NCBI GenBank assembly: GCA_036924085.1
Contig: JAVGWX010000018.1
Coordinates: 25,394,063-25,458,062 of the forward strand
DNA: 64,000 bases
DNA from: Ariolimax columbianus
Lineage: Eukaryota > Mollusca > Gastropoda > Stylommatophora > Arionidae
Reading direction: 5' to 3'
Below are positions 20,155 to 27,657 of the stretch, piece after piece. The notes under the pieces are model-generated. The model searched no databases and was not told the DNA's origin. It saw nothing but the letters and a program-made list of their open reading frames with translations. Made by a program: the position numbers and the translations under genes. Each line of letters opens with the position of its first letter. Within the stretch, counting starts at the first letter, position 1.

Positions 20155-20280
20155 TTGATAAAGCTTGTTATTATATAGCGACTCTAGTTAAATAACTTGT
20201 TATATATAGTGACTCTTGTTAAATAGCCAGTTATTATATAGTGACTCTTGTTAAATAGTCAGTTATTATATGGTAGACTC
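20155..20280 (+). repeat. minisatellite, left half
   Basis: About 33-bp units (gtgactcttgttaaatagcc agttattatata) repeated nearly four times. The array stops abruptly at 20280 and resumes at 27645, so it was one array split by the 7.36-kb insertion. Confidence 0.9.
20268..20280. repeat. left 13-bp target-site duplication
   Basis: atatggtagactc, identical to 27645-27657. Other units of the array read tagtgactc or tagtagactc at this place, so a perfect match is more than unit similarity. Confidence 0.75.
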
Positions 20281-20915
20281 ATCTGGGGTAGTTGTCTCGC
20301 TGCGGCGACTCAATTTCAACCAGTGTTCGTAAAGCGATCTCAGTCCCGCCAGGCGGAGCGATAGCGCGGGCTTGCGGAAAACGCTCGCCTGCCTTTCCCC
20401 GTAGTGCGAATTGGGTGCGGTTTGTGGTAGTGGCTCCTCCACCGAGGTGCGCTAGTCTGGTCCGTATCAGGAAACGTGGTCCGTCCGTGGTGATTTATCT
20501 AAGGCTTATAGCAGAGCTCGACAGTACGTCTCGCTGGTGGTCCGACTCTCGCAAAGAGCTTGTGACCGGCAAATGGAAAGCAGGAATCGTTGCCTCGAGG
20601 CCCTGCGTTCTCCCTACGGAGAAGAAGGGCCGGCAGGCCAAATTGTGTCTCTAGTGCCAGTGAAATTCGTCGCCGAGGTCGTTGGGATCCGTTCTGCACA
20701 GAGCGCTGCCATCCCTCCTCGAGCGAGCCCGGTCGGTCGGTCGTCTGGTGCGTGTGGGAGGCCCCTGTCAGGCGGTCCTAGGTCGACGGAGTGAGGGACG
20801 GGTGGAACAACCGTCCGTCCGTCCCGTCAGTCGGTCCCTGCGGCCGTCCCAGTGAGGCTTTTTACACACCCTTCCTCCGCCGACCGGTGTGCGCAGTACG
20901 TACGTCGCCGACAGA
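20281..20915 (+). other. 5'ETS-like GC-rich leader
   Basis: About 635 bp of GC-rich sequence, unlike the surrounding AT-rich intron, directly abutting base 1 of 18S. By position it should be the external transcribed spacer of pre-rRNA. That its first base coincides with the element boundary suggests the template RNA began at the Pol I start site. Identification rests on position and composition; ETS sequences are not conserved enough for me to recognise. A 120-codon frame within it is a GC artefact. Confidence 0.6.
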
Positions 20916-22081
20916 TATCTGGTTGATCCTGCCAGTAGTCATATGCTTGTCTCAAAGATTAAGCCATGCATGTCTAAGTTCACACTGTCTCACGGTGAAA
21001 CCGCGAATGGCTCATTAAATCAGTCGAGGTTCCTTAGATGACACGATCCTACTTGGATAACTGTGGCAATTCTAGAGCTAATACATGCTTACCAAGCTCC
21101 GACCCTCGCGGAAAGAGCGCTTTTATTAGTTCAAAACCAATCGTCGTTTCCCCTCGCGGGGTTGCGGCGTCCCCACTGGTGACTCTGGATAACTTTGTGC
21201 TGATCGCATGGCCTCATGTGCCGGCGACGCATCTTTCAAATGTCTGCCCTATCAAATGTCGATGGTACGTGACATGCCTACCATGTTTGTAACGGGTAAC
21301 GGGGAATCAGGGTTCGATTCCGGAGAGGGAGCATGAGAAACGGCTACCACATCCAAGGAAGGCAGCAGGCGCGCAACTTACCCACTCCCGGCACGGGGAG
21401 GTAGTGACGAAAAATAACAATACGGGACTCTTTCGAGGCCCCGTAATTGGAATGAGTACACTTTAAACCCTTTAACGAGGATCTATTGGAGGGCAAGTCT
21501 GGTGCCAGCAGCCGCGGTAATTCCAGCTCCAATAGCGTATATTAAAGTTGTTGCAGTTAAAAAGCTCGTAGTTGGATCTCAGGCGCAGGCGGGCGGTCCG
21601 GCTCGCGCCGGTTCACTGCCCGTTGTCTCCTGCCCTACCGTCTGCCGGCTCTCTCCCACGGGTGCTCTTCGCTGAGCGTCCTGGGTGGCCGGCGCGTTTA
21701 CTTTGAAAAATTAGAGTGTTCAAAGCACGCCTCGGCTGCCTGAATAATGGTGCATGGAATAATGGAATAGGACCTCGGTTCTATTTTGTTGGTTTTCGGA
21801 ACTGGAGGTAATGATTAACAGGGACAAACGGGGGCATTCGTATTGCGGCGTTAGAGGTGAAATTCTTGGATCGCCGCAAGACGAGCTACTGCGAAAGCAT
21901 TTGTCAAGAATGTTTTCATTAATCAAGAACGAAAGTCAGAGGCGCGAAGACGATCAGATACCGTCGTAGTTCTGACCATAAACGATGCCGACTAGCGATC
22001 CGCAGGAGTTGCTTCGATGACTCTGCGGGCAGCTTCCGGGAAACCAAAGTGTTTGGGTTCCGGGGGAAGTATGGTTGCAAA

Positions 22082-22130
<49 letters not shown>

Positions 22131-26700: not shown

Positions 26701-27617
26701 TTCCAGAGGTGGTAGAAAATATACCAGGTATTGCAAACAAAAACTGCCAGACCGAAAAAGAAAGGAGAGATACTACCCTAAGCTTCATAACGAAAAGCTA
26801 CCCAAGCATGGACTGGACCCATGCATACACCGACGGCTCTGTAACAAACACTACACAGAACGGAGGGGCAGGAGCATTCCTGAACCTACCAAATGGCAGA
26901 AAAATAACACTGTCATTCGCTACTGGTAAGTACACGAGCAATTTCAGAGCAGAGGCAGAGGCACTGAGGGCGGCAGTGGAAGAAATGGTAACACACAGTG
27001 AAAATGAGAGCCATATAGTCCTGCTGACAGATGCTCTCGAAGTAGTCACAGCGCTAAAAAGCCAGAAAAACACTGAGCTTAATGACTTAAGAGCAGCACT
27101 CTGCAAACTGTGCCAACAGTCCGCACCAAAAAGGGTAGTGGTACAGTGGGTTCCGTCACACTGCAACATCCAAGGCAACGAGGAGGCAGACAGACTGGCA
27201 AAAGAAGGTGCAAGGCTACCACAAATAGATACCAGTATGACGTACGAAGAGTCAAAACGGCTTATCAAAGCCAGGTACATGTCCAAATGGGAAACCGAAC
27301 ATACTGGTTACACCAAAAACGATGCCTATTACCAGTTGAACCGAAGAGAGCAGGTCGTTGTCTTCAGACTTCGCACTGGCCACAACAGACTGAGGTACCA
27401 CCTCTTCAACAAATTGAAGATAGGGTGTACCGACGAATGCCCGTGCGGTACTGGTAAAATGACCACTGAACATCTGCTGCAGAACTGCCCGACATACGAA
27501 GATCAGAGAGAGCAGATGTGGCCATTGCCAGTGGAACTGCAAGACAAGCTCTATGGTAGTGGCGAGAGTCTCAGGATGACCGCCGCTTTTTTCGAGAAAA
27601 TAATGGTTACTGTCTGA
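23709..27617 (+). CDS. non-LTR retrotransposon polyprotein: APE endonuclease, RT, RNase H, CCHC
   Basis: Single ORF of 1302 codons without interruption. Domains (numbered from Met1 at 23709): APE-type endonuclease about 78-295 with LQWNAEG (N86), QETH (E113), GDFNSH (D206, N208) and SDHRPI (D283, H284); reverse transcriptase about 505-860 with KSPGKDGI, NGYRPISLL, DLEKAFD (D655), GVPQGGVLSP and FADD (D745, D746); RNase H about 1036-1170 with YTDGS (D1042), E1082, LLTDA (D1108), PSHCN (H1151) and GNEEAD (D1161); and a CPCG..TEHLLQNC zinc knuckle (C1244, C1246, H1255, C1260). Every catalytic residue I can check is present. It copies element RNA at a nicked chromosomal target; the RNase H degrades the RNA strand. 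Domain order fits the I/R1-like LINE group. The first 16 codons lie in the conserved leader, so the paired ATGs at 23757/23760 are the likelier start (1286 aa). No upstream gag-like ORF1 is visible, which is unusual for this group. Confidence 0.95.
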   Translation: MHGAASLTKQCNVNHSMMAAQPIRKTYGAHPEETRQAAIAPGPTPRRGPPLATGGHPPMCRGVKAHGYGETTIGQNFKTLRILQWNAEGVINKKLSLTHHLHEGKIDVACIQETHLNNNHKFSIRGYQTFRLDREGHKGGVLILTRNSIPSSAVPVNHTGQAEIVGVDIMAQETKLRIFNLYGPPNRDLSLSSMEVRDSNCIVVGDFNSHSERWGYSDTDSRGDEVEDWEIDANLSLINRPEDSPSFYSRTWHTTSTPDLAFSTQDIHYKIDRQVLNQLAGSDHRPIRLTIDMEVGPQETKPLPRWNYKRADWDRFAILTDGLCETINTRNTKMKPMVESLSKAIMQAATETIPRGARKNYKPYWNDELQKVEDAVTNARNMAEREKSVEANIALKAAAAKYKHTLKQTARESWKNKTESLNLDKEGNKLWKLVRAMNDETPSNKQITIKQGENLITGKKAANAFVDHYARANHIEVPADKHTDISEELKGHENKNTAPEEHMMAKLTMREMEEAMRTLKRRKSPGKDGITNEMLMGLGQTAKEKLLSVLNQSWKRGIVPQAWKDAILVPVPKTGKDKTDPNGYRPISLLSCVGKLMERMINTRLMWHLEEKRILIPQQAGFRQHRSTEDQVILIAQEIEDAYQAQKHTVAVWVDLEKAFDKVWKDGLRVKLRRSDVCGKMYKWINHYLKQRTARVQVQGQMSKKVTLEQGVPQGGVLSPTLFLVYINDITENIPRRVHSSMFADDLAMWTSEKNLTIARNRMQTALTSLEEWANSWLVKINEEKTTCTIFSLSLKPQSTKLSLNGKILQPNDNPTYLGVTFDRRMTWKSQIERNRMKARERMAIMRKLAGTSWGADEGILKKLYTGRVRPVLEYGIAAWTTAAKANFDKVNKLQNQAMRIITGGMKSTPIVELEKITKLQSMTDRRDCRAQLQSEKLRRLTDHPMYQRLNNLGTGKLKRRNFAEIAKAKMHEDPINALTTPKPITTVRKPTWRQDIFPEVVENIPGIANKNCQTEKERRDTTLSFITKSYPSMDWTHAYTDGSVTNTTQNGGAGAFLNLPNGRKITLSFATGKYTSNFRAEAEALRAAVEEMVTHSENESHIVLLTDALEVVTALKSQKNTELNDLRAALCKLCQQSAPKRVVVQWVPSHCNIQGNEEADRLAKEGARLPQIDTSMTYEESKRLIKARYMSKWETEHTGYTKNDAYYQLNRREQVVVFRLRTGHNRLRYHLFNKLKIGCTDECPCGTGKMTTEHLLQNCPTYEDQREQMWPLPVELQDKLYGSGESLRMTAAFFEKIMVTV

Positions 27618-27644
27618 CTGTGTACGCAGAAGAAGAAGAAGAAG
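27618..27644 (+). other. 3'UTR and (GAA)n tail of the retrotransposon
   Basis: Only 27 bases separate the stop codon from the target-site duplication: a ctgtgtacgca stub and (gaa)n. The other rRNA-leader element and several I/R1-type LINE fragments and SINE B copies here also end in GAA repeats. Confidence 0.8.
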
Positions 27645-27657
27645 ATATGGTAGACTC
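27645..27657. repeat. right 13-bp target-site duplication
   Basis: atatggtagactc, identical to 20268-20280. Rejoining the flanks restores a continuous minisatellite. Confidence 0.75.

Follow-up and report, generated by a model that had tools for sequence, protein, structure and literature searches.

R2 retrotransposons lie within rRNA genes, where they are cotranscribed with the pre-rRNA and have no promoter of their own (PMC12203849, PMC3414825, PMC3542110), and the R2 5′ end is freed from the cotranscript by a ribozyme resembling that of hepatitis delta virus (PMC12203849, PMC3414825). R2 also has nonautonomous partners, the short internally deleted elements (SIDEs) (PMC3414825), and the R8 element of Hydra is located in the 18S rRNA gene (PMC5035012). 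Here, a long interspersed nuclear element (LINE) of the gastropod Ariolimax columbianus is described, one complete insertion of which occupies positions 20281 to 27644 of a 64,000-nucleotide (nt) stretch of genomic DNA (the window; C18:25394063-25458062, where C numbers denote assembly contigs, L numbers denote fetched loci, and el denotes an element position). The element is headed by host pre-rRNA sequence. It would share with the R elements the place of its transcription, yet it is not an R2, and we consider it likely that LINE copies resident in ribosomal DNA (rDNA), transcribed from the pre-rRNA start, seed promoterless daughters.

The element has the features of a non-long-terminal-repeat retrotransposon, with endonuclease (EN) and reverse transcriptase (RT) in one open reading frame (ORF), target site duplications (TSDs) in 19 of 21 copies, and a constant 3′ end in 20 of 20. 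Residence in rDNA and cotranscription, as proposed here, would be shared with the R elements (R1, R2, R7, R8, and R9), from which the Ariolimax LINE differs by its roughly 2,400 leader-bearing copies outside rDNA. Like R2 with its SIDEs, it has a nonautonomous partner. R2 trims the rRNA by ribozyme, whereas the Ariolimax LINE keeps the whole leader in its copies, and the restriction-like endonuclease of R2 is C-terminal to the RT, whereas the Ariolimax LINE carries an N-terminal apurinic/apyrimidinic endonuclease (APE)-type EN together with an RNase H; to our knowledge, R2 carries no APE-type endonuclease. An R2-type element was ruled out by the endonuclease type and the retained leader. The preference of dispersed insertions is limited to TT|RNA sites, so the strict rDNA target specificity that marks the R1 clade (R1, R6, and R7) is not displayed; 18S nt 1395 is a favored site, and the LINE may still belong to this clade.

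Two further kinds of element place a cellular RNA in front of retroposon sequence. In the MINE/WEIRD-MGL elements of Magnaporthe, a cellular RNA copy precedes the LINE, joined at random points in 33 bipartite elements (PMC2104539). Such template-switch chimeras, to which the mammalian U6-L1 also belongs, are similar in having RNA before the LINE, TSDs, and 5′-truncated LINE parts, but their joins are random, whereas the Ariolimax LINE has one dominant junction, thousands of copies, a full ORF, and an 18S end that coincides with a target site. Rather than random joins that each represent their own event, a single junction (designated J1) was common to all 28 LINE copies examined. Short interspersed nuclear elements (SINEs) derived from rRNA, such as SINE28 and the 5S-derived families, likewise have rRNA sequence heading a retroposon. 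These SINEs are short, and the 5S-derived ones use polymerase III. In Ariolimax, the leading 1.87 kb of the pre-rRNA is placed before an autonomous 7.4-kb LINE and a nonautonomous partner of ∼3.5 kb, and the window copy, at 7.4 kb with an ORF, is not a short nonautonomous SINE. No rRNA-led LINE family was described in the open-licence papers searched, in keeping with an earlier sequence-only reading of the window, which knew of no such family.

A young, high-copy LINE family with a shared start

The assembly searched comprised 2.29 Gb in 401 contigs. The exact 33-base 5′ end of the element occurred 2,559 times, and dispersed head-bearing copies number roughly 2,400. The head search returned 2,418 first-look candidates; 40 of these were scored, and the match started at base 1 in 37, base 3 in two, and base 14 in one. 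The 5′ external transcribed spacer (5′ETS) ran into 18S in all 30 fetched places, and in 28 of the 30 colinearity with the window continued into the LINE for as far as the fetched piece extended (exceptions, L013 and L027).

Twenty further copies, fetched at both ends, began at the start base of the window element or at most 2 bp from it, and all 20 fetched 3′ ends carried a tail identical in type. The window element is flanked by a 13-bp TSD (atatggtagactc; 20268 to 20280 and 27645 to 27657; all parts of the element are on the forward strand), and its ORF is intact. With this copy included, 19 of 21 copies had TSDs of 11 to 16 nt, of which 18 abutted the element start exactly and one (L012) was off by 1 nt; those of L009 and L012 lie inside tandem repeats. 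Under the rule used, no TSD was found for L016 or L020. As a control, mismatched flank pairs were compared, and none of 420 reached 7 nt.

A second sample was chosen by body rather than head, which avoids a selection for uniform heads, giving 2,083 candidates, 40 of which were scored, with the 5′ side viewed for 37 (all 24 that were identical to the window and 13 of the 16 others). Since 24 of the 40 scored body matches were identical to the window across 1,501 bp, the family is young. Sequence from rRNA stood at the front of 34 of the 37, in some cases truncated or with internal deletions, and the three headless copies were 5′ truncated, each at a different place (el 1878, 2043, and 2078).

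The window element therefore belongs to a young, high-copy LINE family. A one-off fusion or an assembly join at 20281 or 22155 was ruled out, as the structure recurs at dozens of independent loci, each bearing TSDs of its own. The sequence-only reading had described a single TSD-flanked block of ETS leader, 18S from base 1, and an intact EN-RT-RNase H ORF, with which the TSD, Rfam, and Pfam results agree. Its proposal of an RNA that began at the pre-rRNA start, ran into the LINE, and was integrated outside rDNA is also supported; its single fusion event is not, given ∼2,400 copies, a second, nonautonomous family, and a renewed head. In none of the 21 copies for which both ends were checked did the LINE and rRNA parts have separate TSDs, the outcome that would have spoken against that reading.

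Some copies were nested. L004, L005, L008, L011, and L027 each interrupt an older family member, and the insertion points of L004 and L005 in the older 5′ untranslated region (5′UTR) are identical.

The head is host pre-rRNA

To locate rDNA arrays, an 18S 3′ motif was used, and 20 pieces were fetched. In all 16 array units sampled (L099 to L114), element base 1 came directly after an identical 90-bp block ending in TGTATATT. Three of the remaining four pieces (L115 to L117) had no ETS within the piece, and the fourth (L118) was a dispersed copy without the 90-bp block; this promoter-like block was absent from the dispersed copies examined. A search for the block plus start, allowing at most one mismatch, identified 122 sites, versus the 2,559 exact element starts. 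Among the 100 such sites listed, 98 were in small array contigs, mostly at ∼12-kb spacing, and the two chromosomal sites, on C10 and C12, were both old copies. The first of these (L141; C10:58993200-58995300) is an old LINE copy with an rDNA part starting ∼17 bp upstream of the usual start, and in the second (L142; C12:62836600-62838700) rDNA sequence of ∼89% identity extends upstream beyond the start for at least 296 bp.

In the window, the first part of the head is the complete host 5′ETS from its first base (rDNA +1 to +636; 20281 to 20916), which aligned to unit L099 with 2 substitutions and no gaps. The second part is host 18S rRNA from nt 1 to ∼1239 (20917 to 22155), ending at J1; it differed from rDNA by 1 substitution in 1,233 sites compared and matched Rfam SSU at 20919 to 22062 (939.8 bits). 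The head of L002 was identical to L099 across both the ETS (636 nt, no substitutions or gaps) and the 18S (1,233 nt, no substitutions), and the other 29 heads had 0 to 13 ETS and 0 to 5 18S substitutions relative to this unit. The 18S part was substitution free in 16 of the 30 heads; each of the 30 alignment rows also has a single gap column where the 18S alignment ends. Chance likeness of the leader to a 5′ETS was ruled out, as real rDNA units carry the leader. The element head is thus host pre-rRNA from its start, and the sequence-only identification of the leader as 5′ETS-like was correct.

Separate histories of head and body

Across the 30 copies, the 18S part had 31 variable sites, all of them singletons. 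Variants shared between copies, counted in the 28 LINE copies, numbered 0 in 1,239 sites of the 18S, 13 in 623 of the ETS, and 47 in 1,416 of the body (Fisher, 6e−7 and 1e−13). Between L013 and the window, 1 of 1,239 18S sites differed, versus 206 of 988 aligned sites plus 484 gap columns in the 5′UTR body. The 16 rDNA units fell into three ETS types (7, 8, and 1 units), with which the ten body-chosen copies that had a full ETS start could be compared. L068 was one substitution from rDNA type A1, L058 was one substitution from type A2 and shared the 26-bp deletion of that type, and the others were 0 to 10 substitutions and 0 to 2 gaps from rDNA; copies whose bodies are identical across 1,501 bp can therefore bear different rDNA ETS types, as L068 and L058 do. 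ETS types assort freely with body subfamilies. Types T..(21) and C/T(170) were each seen with both, and the 8 copies of type 39T were confined to a single subfamily. The family has an exact start, TSDs, heads of host origin, and heads and bodies that have reassorted, and the heads are renewed from rDNA and not inherited together with the LINE body.

Some observations weigh against the mechanism favored here. Singletons were also fewer in the 18S (31/1,239) than in the body (119/1,416), with 28 in the ETS, and the 30 copies had been picked by head similarity, which lowers head variation. Most of these head-selected copies were 4 to 11 ETS substitutions from the nearest of the 16 units, and a CCGCGG start behind a TATATT block was not found. 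The start CCGCAG, by eye the commonest dispersed start among the places listed, speaks for renewal. It was absent from the 16 sampled units but follows the TATATT block in six units of the arrays (five on C86 and one on C236) and in two chromosomal places.

If the head were instead fixed and vertically inherited in a very young family, the ETS differences would represent old polymorphism in the LINE population. The youth of the family, with its 24 identical body matches in 40, is in line with this, but the body has 47 shared variants and the 18S none, L013 diverges strongly in the body and at a single 18S site, and head types match rDNA unit types down to the 26-bp deletion; vertical inheritance is thus very improbable. 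A head captured once and inherited could also be refreshed repeatedly in its 5′ part if the reverse transcriptase, while copying the 1.24-kb 18S stretch of a headed LINE RNA, made a strand transfer to abundant pre-rRNA, and rDNA residents would then be unneeded. Both the reassortment and the invariant 18S would be accounted for, and homology of >1 kb would be ideal for strand transfer. We nevertheless regard this route as quite unlikely, since it requires a promoter for dispersed copies, which are without the upstream block, and it leaves unexplained the insertion evidence at 18S nt 1395 and the LINE-bearing unit on contig C67, both described below.

Probable residence in rDNA and 18S nucleotide 1395

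A pattern search for 18S sequence extending past the usual junction identified 188 places, 26 of which were examined. In 11 of these, the 18S ended at nt 1395 (in L169 with one shared base) and was joined to nine different element points, base 1 being used three times. A constant 18S end combined with variable element points is the pattern left by insertion at one site with variable 5′ truncation. Using a target profile built on 17 clean dispersed sites (TT|RNA; TSD of 11 to 13 nt, mode 12) together with the modal TSD length, the sequence TATT|AAATAG, 12 nt upstream of the nt-1395 end, ranked in the top 0.18% of 1,700 rDNA positions. The predicted nick, TATT|AAAT, lies in 18S 1370 to 1410 (local sequence, TATTAAAT).

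From this, the 3′ junction was predicted to read element tail, AAATAGTTCGCC, and then 18S, and the search made after the prediction found one match genome-wide, with the exact 12-nt TSD, versus 0 for the control. The match is in a retrocopy on chromosome C17 that has its own 15-nt TSD and consists, in order, of a LINE 3′ part, the TSD, 18S to its end, internal transcribed spacer 1 (ITS1), a second LINE 3′ part, and the tail. Its 18S was equal to rDNA at 413 of 413 compared bases. This retrocopy is read as the fossil of a transcript through an rDNA unit with two LINE insertions. Genome-wide, 18S nt 1395 was followed by a base other than G in 57 places, an upper bound for junctions of this kind. 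Of the 12 such places that were fetched, 9 are junctions to the element and 1 (L162) to a 28S piece, and in 2 (L077 and L166) the 18S simply continues with a changed base; the junctions of L169 and L176 are not included in the 57.

In the array contig C67 (90300 to 99300; L119), promoter, ETS, 18S, and LINE follow one another, colinear with the window element for 6.57 kb at 98.95%, and the ORF is open up to a run of N. This is the one case in which a LINE follows an intact promoter within an rDNA unit, and it may be an assembly artefact. There is, then, an 18S-1395 target with its 3′ junction at one transcript-derived locus, and one LINE-bearing unit in an array contig.

Several points weigh against parents resident in rDNA. 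As a target, J1 reaches only the top 5.4% of positions, and of eight other single 18S junctions, one ranked in the top 3% and seven in the top 13 to 87%; these seven are not target-like, so some junctions are not insertion sites. Only one resident was seen in array contigs, its 3′ junction reads N, and the unit had been selected for its odd spacing (18.55 kb versus ∼12.15 kb). The contig set that includes C67 resembles scaffolding debris, and the assembler could have made a join across the 1.9-kb identical head. Of 18 array units inspected at J1, 15 read N, as do 16 of 16 further array units; of the other three, L119 enters the LINE and two are intact. When the matching 3′ junction was sought, with 18S from beyond J1 directly after the LINE tail, there were no matches.

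Beyond about 18S nt 1200, the sequence is N in most units of the array contigs (C50, C67, C86, C190, and others), and the promoter at 137186 of C67 is on the strand opposite to the other 17 listed there. Double heads, in which a second pre-rRNA start comes immediately after an 18S piece with its end at nt 1292 or 1395, were also observed (L159, L172, L173, and L076). In L159, both starts are present, 1,927 bp apart (C1:27730268 and 27732195); L076 is not a complete double head, its first head being cut at rDNA +1042 beside a minisatellite. L162 (C1:110879550-110880950) runs from the 18S end through ITS1 and the 5.8S start into an 18S 1395 segment, a 28S piece, and the LINE body, and is a rearranged rDNA transcript or unit. 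In L164, 18S to about +2431 is joined to a head truncated at el 1542, placing 18S before 18S.

The junctions bear on a further explanation, template jumping, in which a separate LINE RNA is copied and the enzyme switches to an abundant pre-rRNA 5′ fragment and reads to its first base, adding the head anew each time. Known LINE chimeras have a full-length cellular RNA before a randomly 5′-truncated LINE and are flanked by TSDs (PMC2104539). A constant 18S end with variable LINE truncation would fit, as would double heads such as L159 and the seven of eight odd junctions that are unlike insertion sites. We nonetheless judge template jumping unlikely, because thousands of copies have one junction in common and 34 of 37 copies with near-identical bodies carry rRNA. 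Each of the three without it begins elsewhere, so starts do not accumulate at a native LINE 5′ end. Template jumping also leaves unexplained the coincidence of the constant 18S end with a target site, 12 nt behind TT|AAA, and the existence of a 3′ junction with exactly that TSD.

Proposed mechanism

In the reading that we prefer, parents would lie inside rDNA units, with 18S nt 1395 as a favored target and the dominant lineage joined to 18S at nt ∼1239. These parents would have no promoter of their own in rDNA, and their transcription would begin at the pre-rRNA start, presumably through RNA polymerase I, to which the common start of 2,559 copies at one base beside the TATATT block points indirectly. 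The uncut RNA, 5′ETS-18S(1..n)-LINE, would then serve as both mRNA and retrotransposition template, and target-primed reverse transcription at TT|RNA sites genome-wide would yield daughters with the whole pre-rRNA leader and without the upstream promoter. Each daughter head would be a fresh copy of present rDNA, because the parents share the rDNA units and their concerted evolution, and the body would retain the LINE's own genealogy.

Nuclear export and translation of the element RNA would be part of this cycle, with rDNA residents as the probable main source of daughters. We rate residents as seeds no higher than likely because template jumping or strand transfer may account for part of the data, especially the seven non-target-like junctions, and because rDNA assembly is weak ground. 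The fuller picture, of a protein-coding family living by RNA polymerase I, with rDNA arrays as its nursery, the uncut transcript as mRNA and template, and thousands of promoterless daughters with dated rDNA heads, is one to which we would give an even chance.

Anatomy, coding capacity, and a nonautonomous partner

Within the LINE 5′UTR, which is ∼1.55 kb long, lie repeats resembling 18S and a diverged copy of the 28S 3′ end. Self-comparison identified three repeats of ∼190 bp (22091 to 22620, starting at 22091, 22287, and 22470), each beginning with an 18S-like segment of ∼73 bp, with the first repeat inside the 18S head. The 28S 3′ end (22785 to 23188) matched positions 3005 to 3399 of the 3401 in Rfam LSU (66.9 bits) and is an older rRNA capture. 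What the sequence-only reading took for shuffled 18S/28S after 18S nt ∼1239 is, therefore, the LINE's own 5′UTR. At the Rfam gathering threshold, no ribozyme was identified in the window.

The ORF (23709 to 27617) encodes 1302 amino acids with an APE-type endonuclease, a reverse transcriptase, an RNase H, and a C-terminal Cys-rich motif. It has no internal stops, Pfam identified the EN, RVT_1, and RNase_H domains, and all of the motif strings sought, which we take to be the catalytic ones, were found. The nearest solved structures were those of L1 ORF2, from residue 92-93 onward, and R2 matched in the RT only. Relatives of the protein accounted for 1,683 of 7,999 scored candidates; the best 120 included sequences from Littorina saxatilis and Batillaria and were otherwise from metagenome sources. 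In viral contigs, three stretches fit the search pattern, and none encoded a relative. The ORF is followed by a short 3′UTR (27618 to 27644) ending in GTGTACGCAG(AAG)n, the common 3′ tail identified by comparison of copies. Elsewhere in the window, a 199-amino-acid ORF (13673 to 14272) resembles, by eye, the end of another LINE reverse transcriptase.

As previously stated, L013 and L027 are not colinear with the window into the LINE. Both carry the same head and a 5′UTR-like body, followed by the tail CAGCGTACG(ATG)(AAG)n, with no ORF, and represent a nonautonomous partner family of ∼3.5 kb. L027, located in an older LINE copy, has a TSD, and none was visible by eye for L013. The window also contains an old headless partner copy (227 to 1717) with the TSD AGATCTTTTTGA at 215 to 226 and 1718 to 1729; its 5′ end falls within an 18S-like segment.

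Implications

Known rDNA elements stay in rDNA or trim the rRNA, and a LINE whose copies retain the full pre-rRNA front and are spread genome-wide would differ from them. Trypanosome variant surface glycoprotein (VSG) genes are the textbook case of protein coding by polymerase I. If the proposed mechanism is true, the Ariolimax LINE would be a natural instance of protein coding from a polymerase I transcript beyond the known exceptions, and it would need an export and translation route for such a transcript with a 3.4-kb rRNA-rich leader. The family explains how 18S pseudogenes can come to number in the thousands, which is a trap for 18S barcoding, rRNA mapping, and rDNA assembly. The split between head and body provides a direct test of where the active copies of the LINE reside. 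If the mechanism is true, every daughter would record a pre-rRNA start site and preserve a stage in the evolution of the ETS, and the dispersed heads would form a dated fossil record of ETS and 18S from which the tempo of rDNA concerted evolution could be measured directly.

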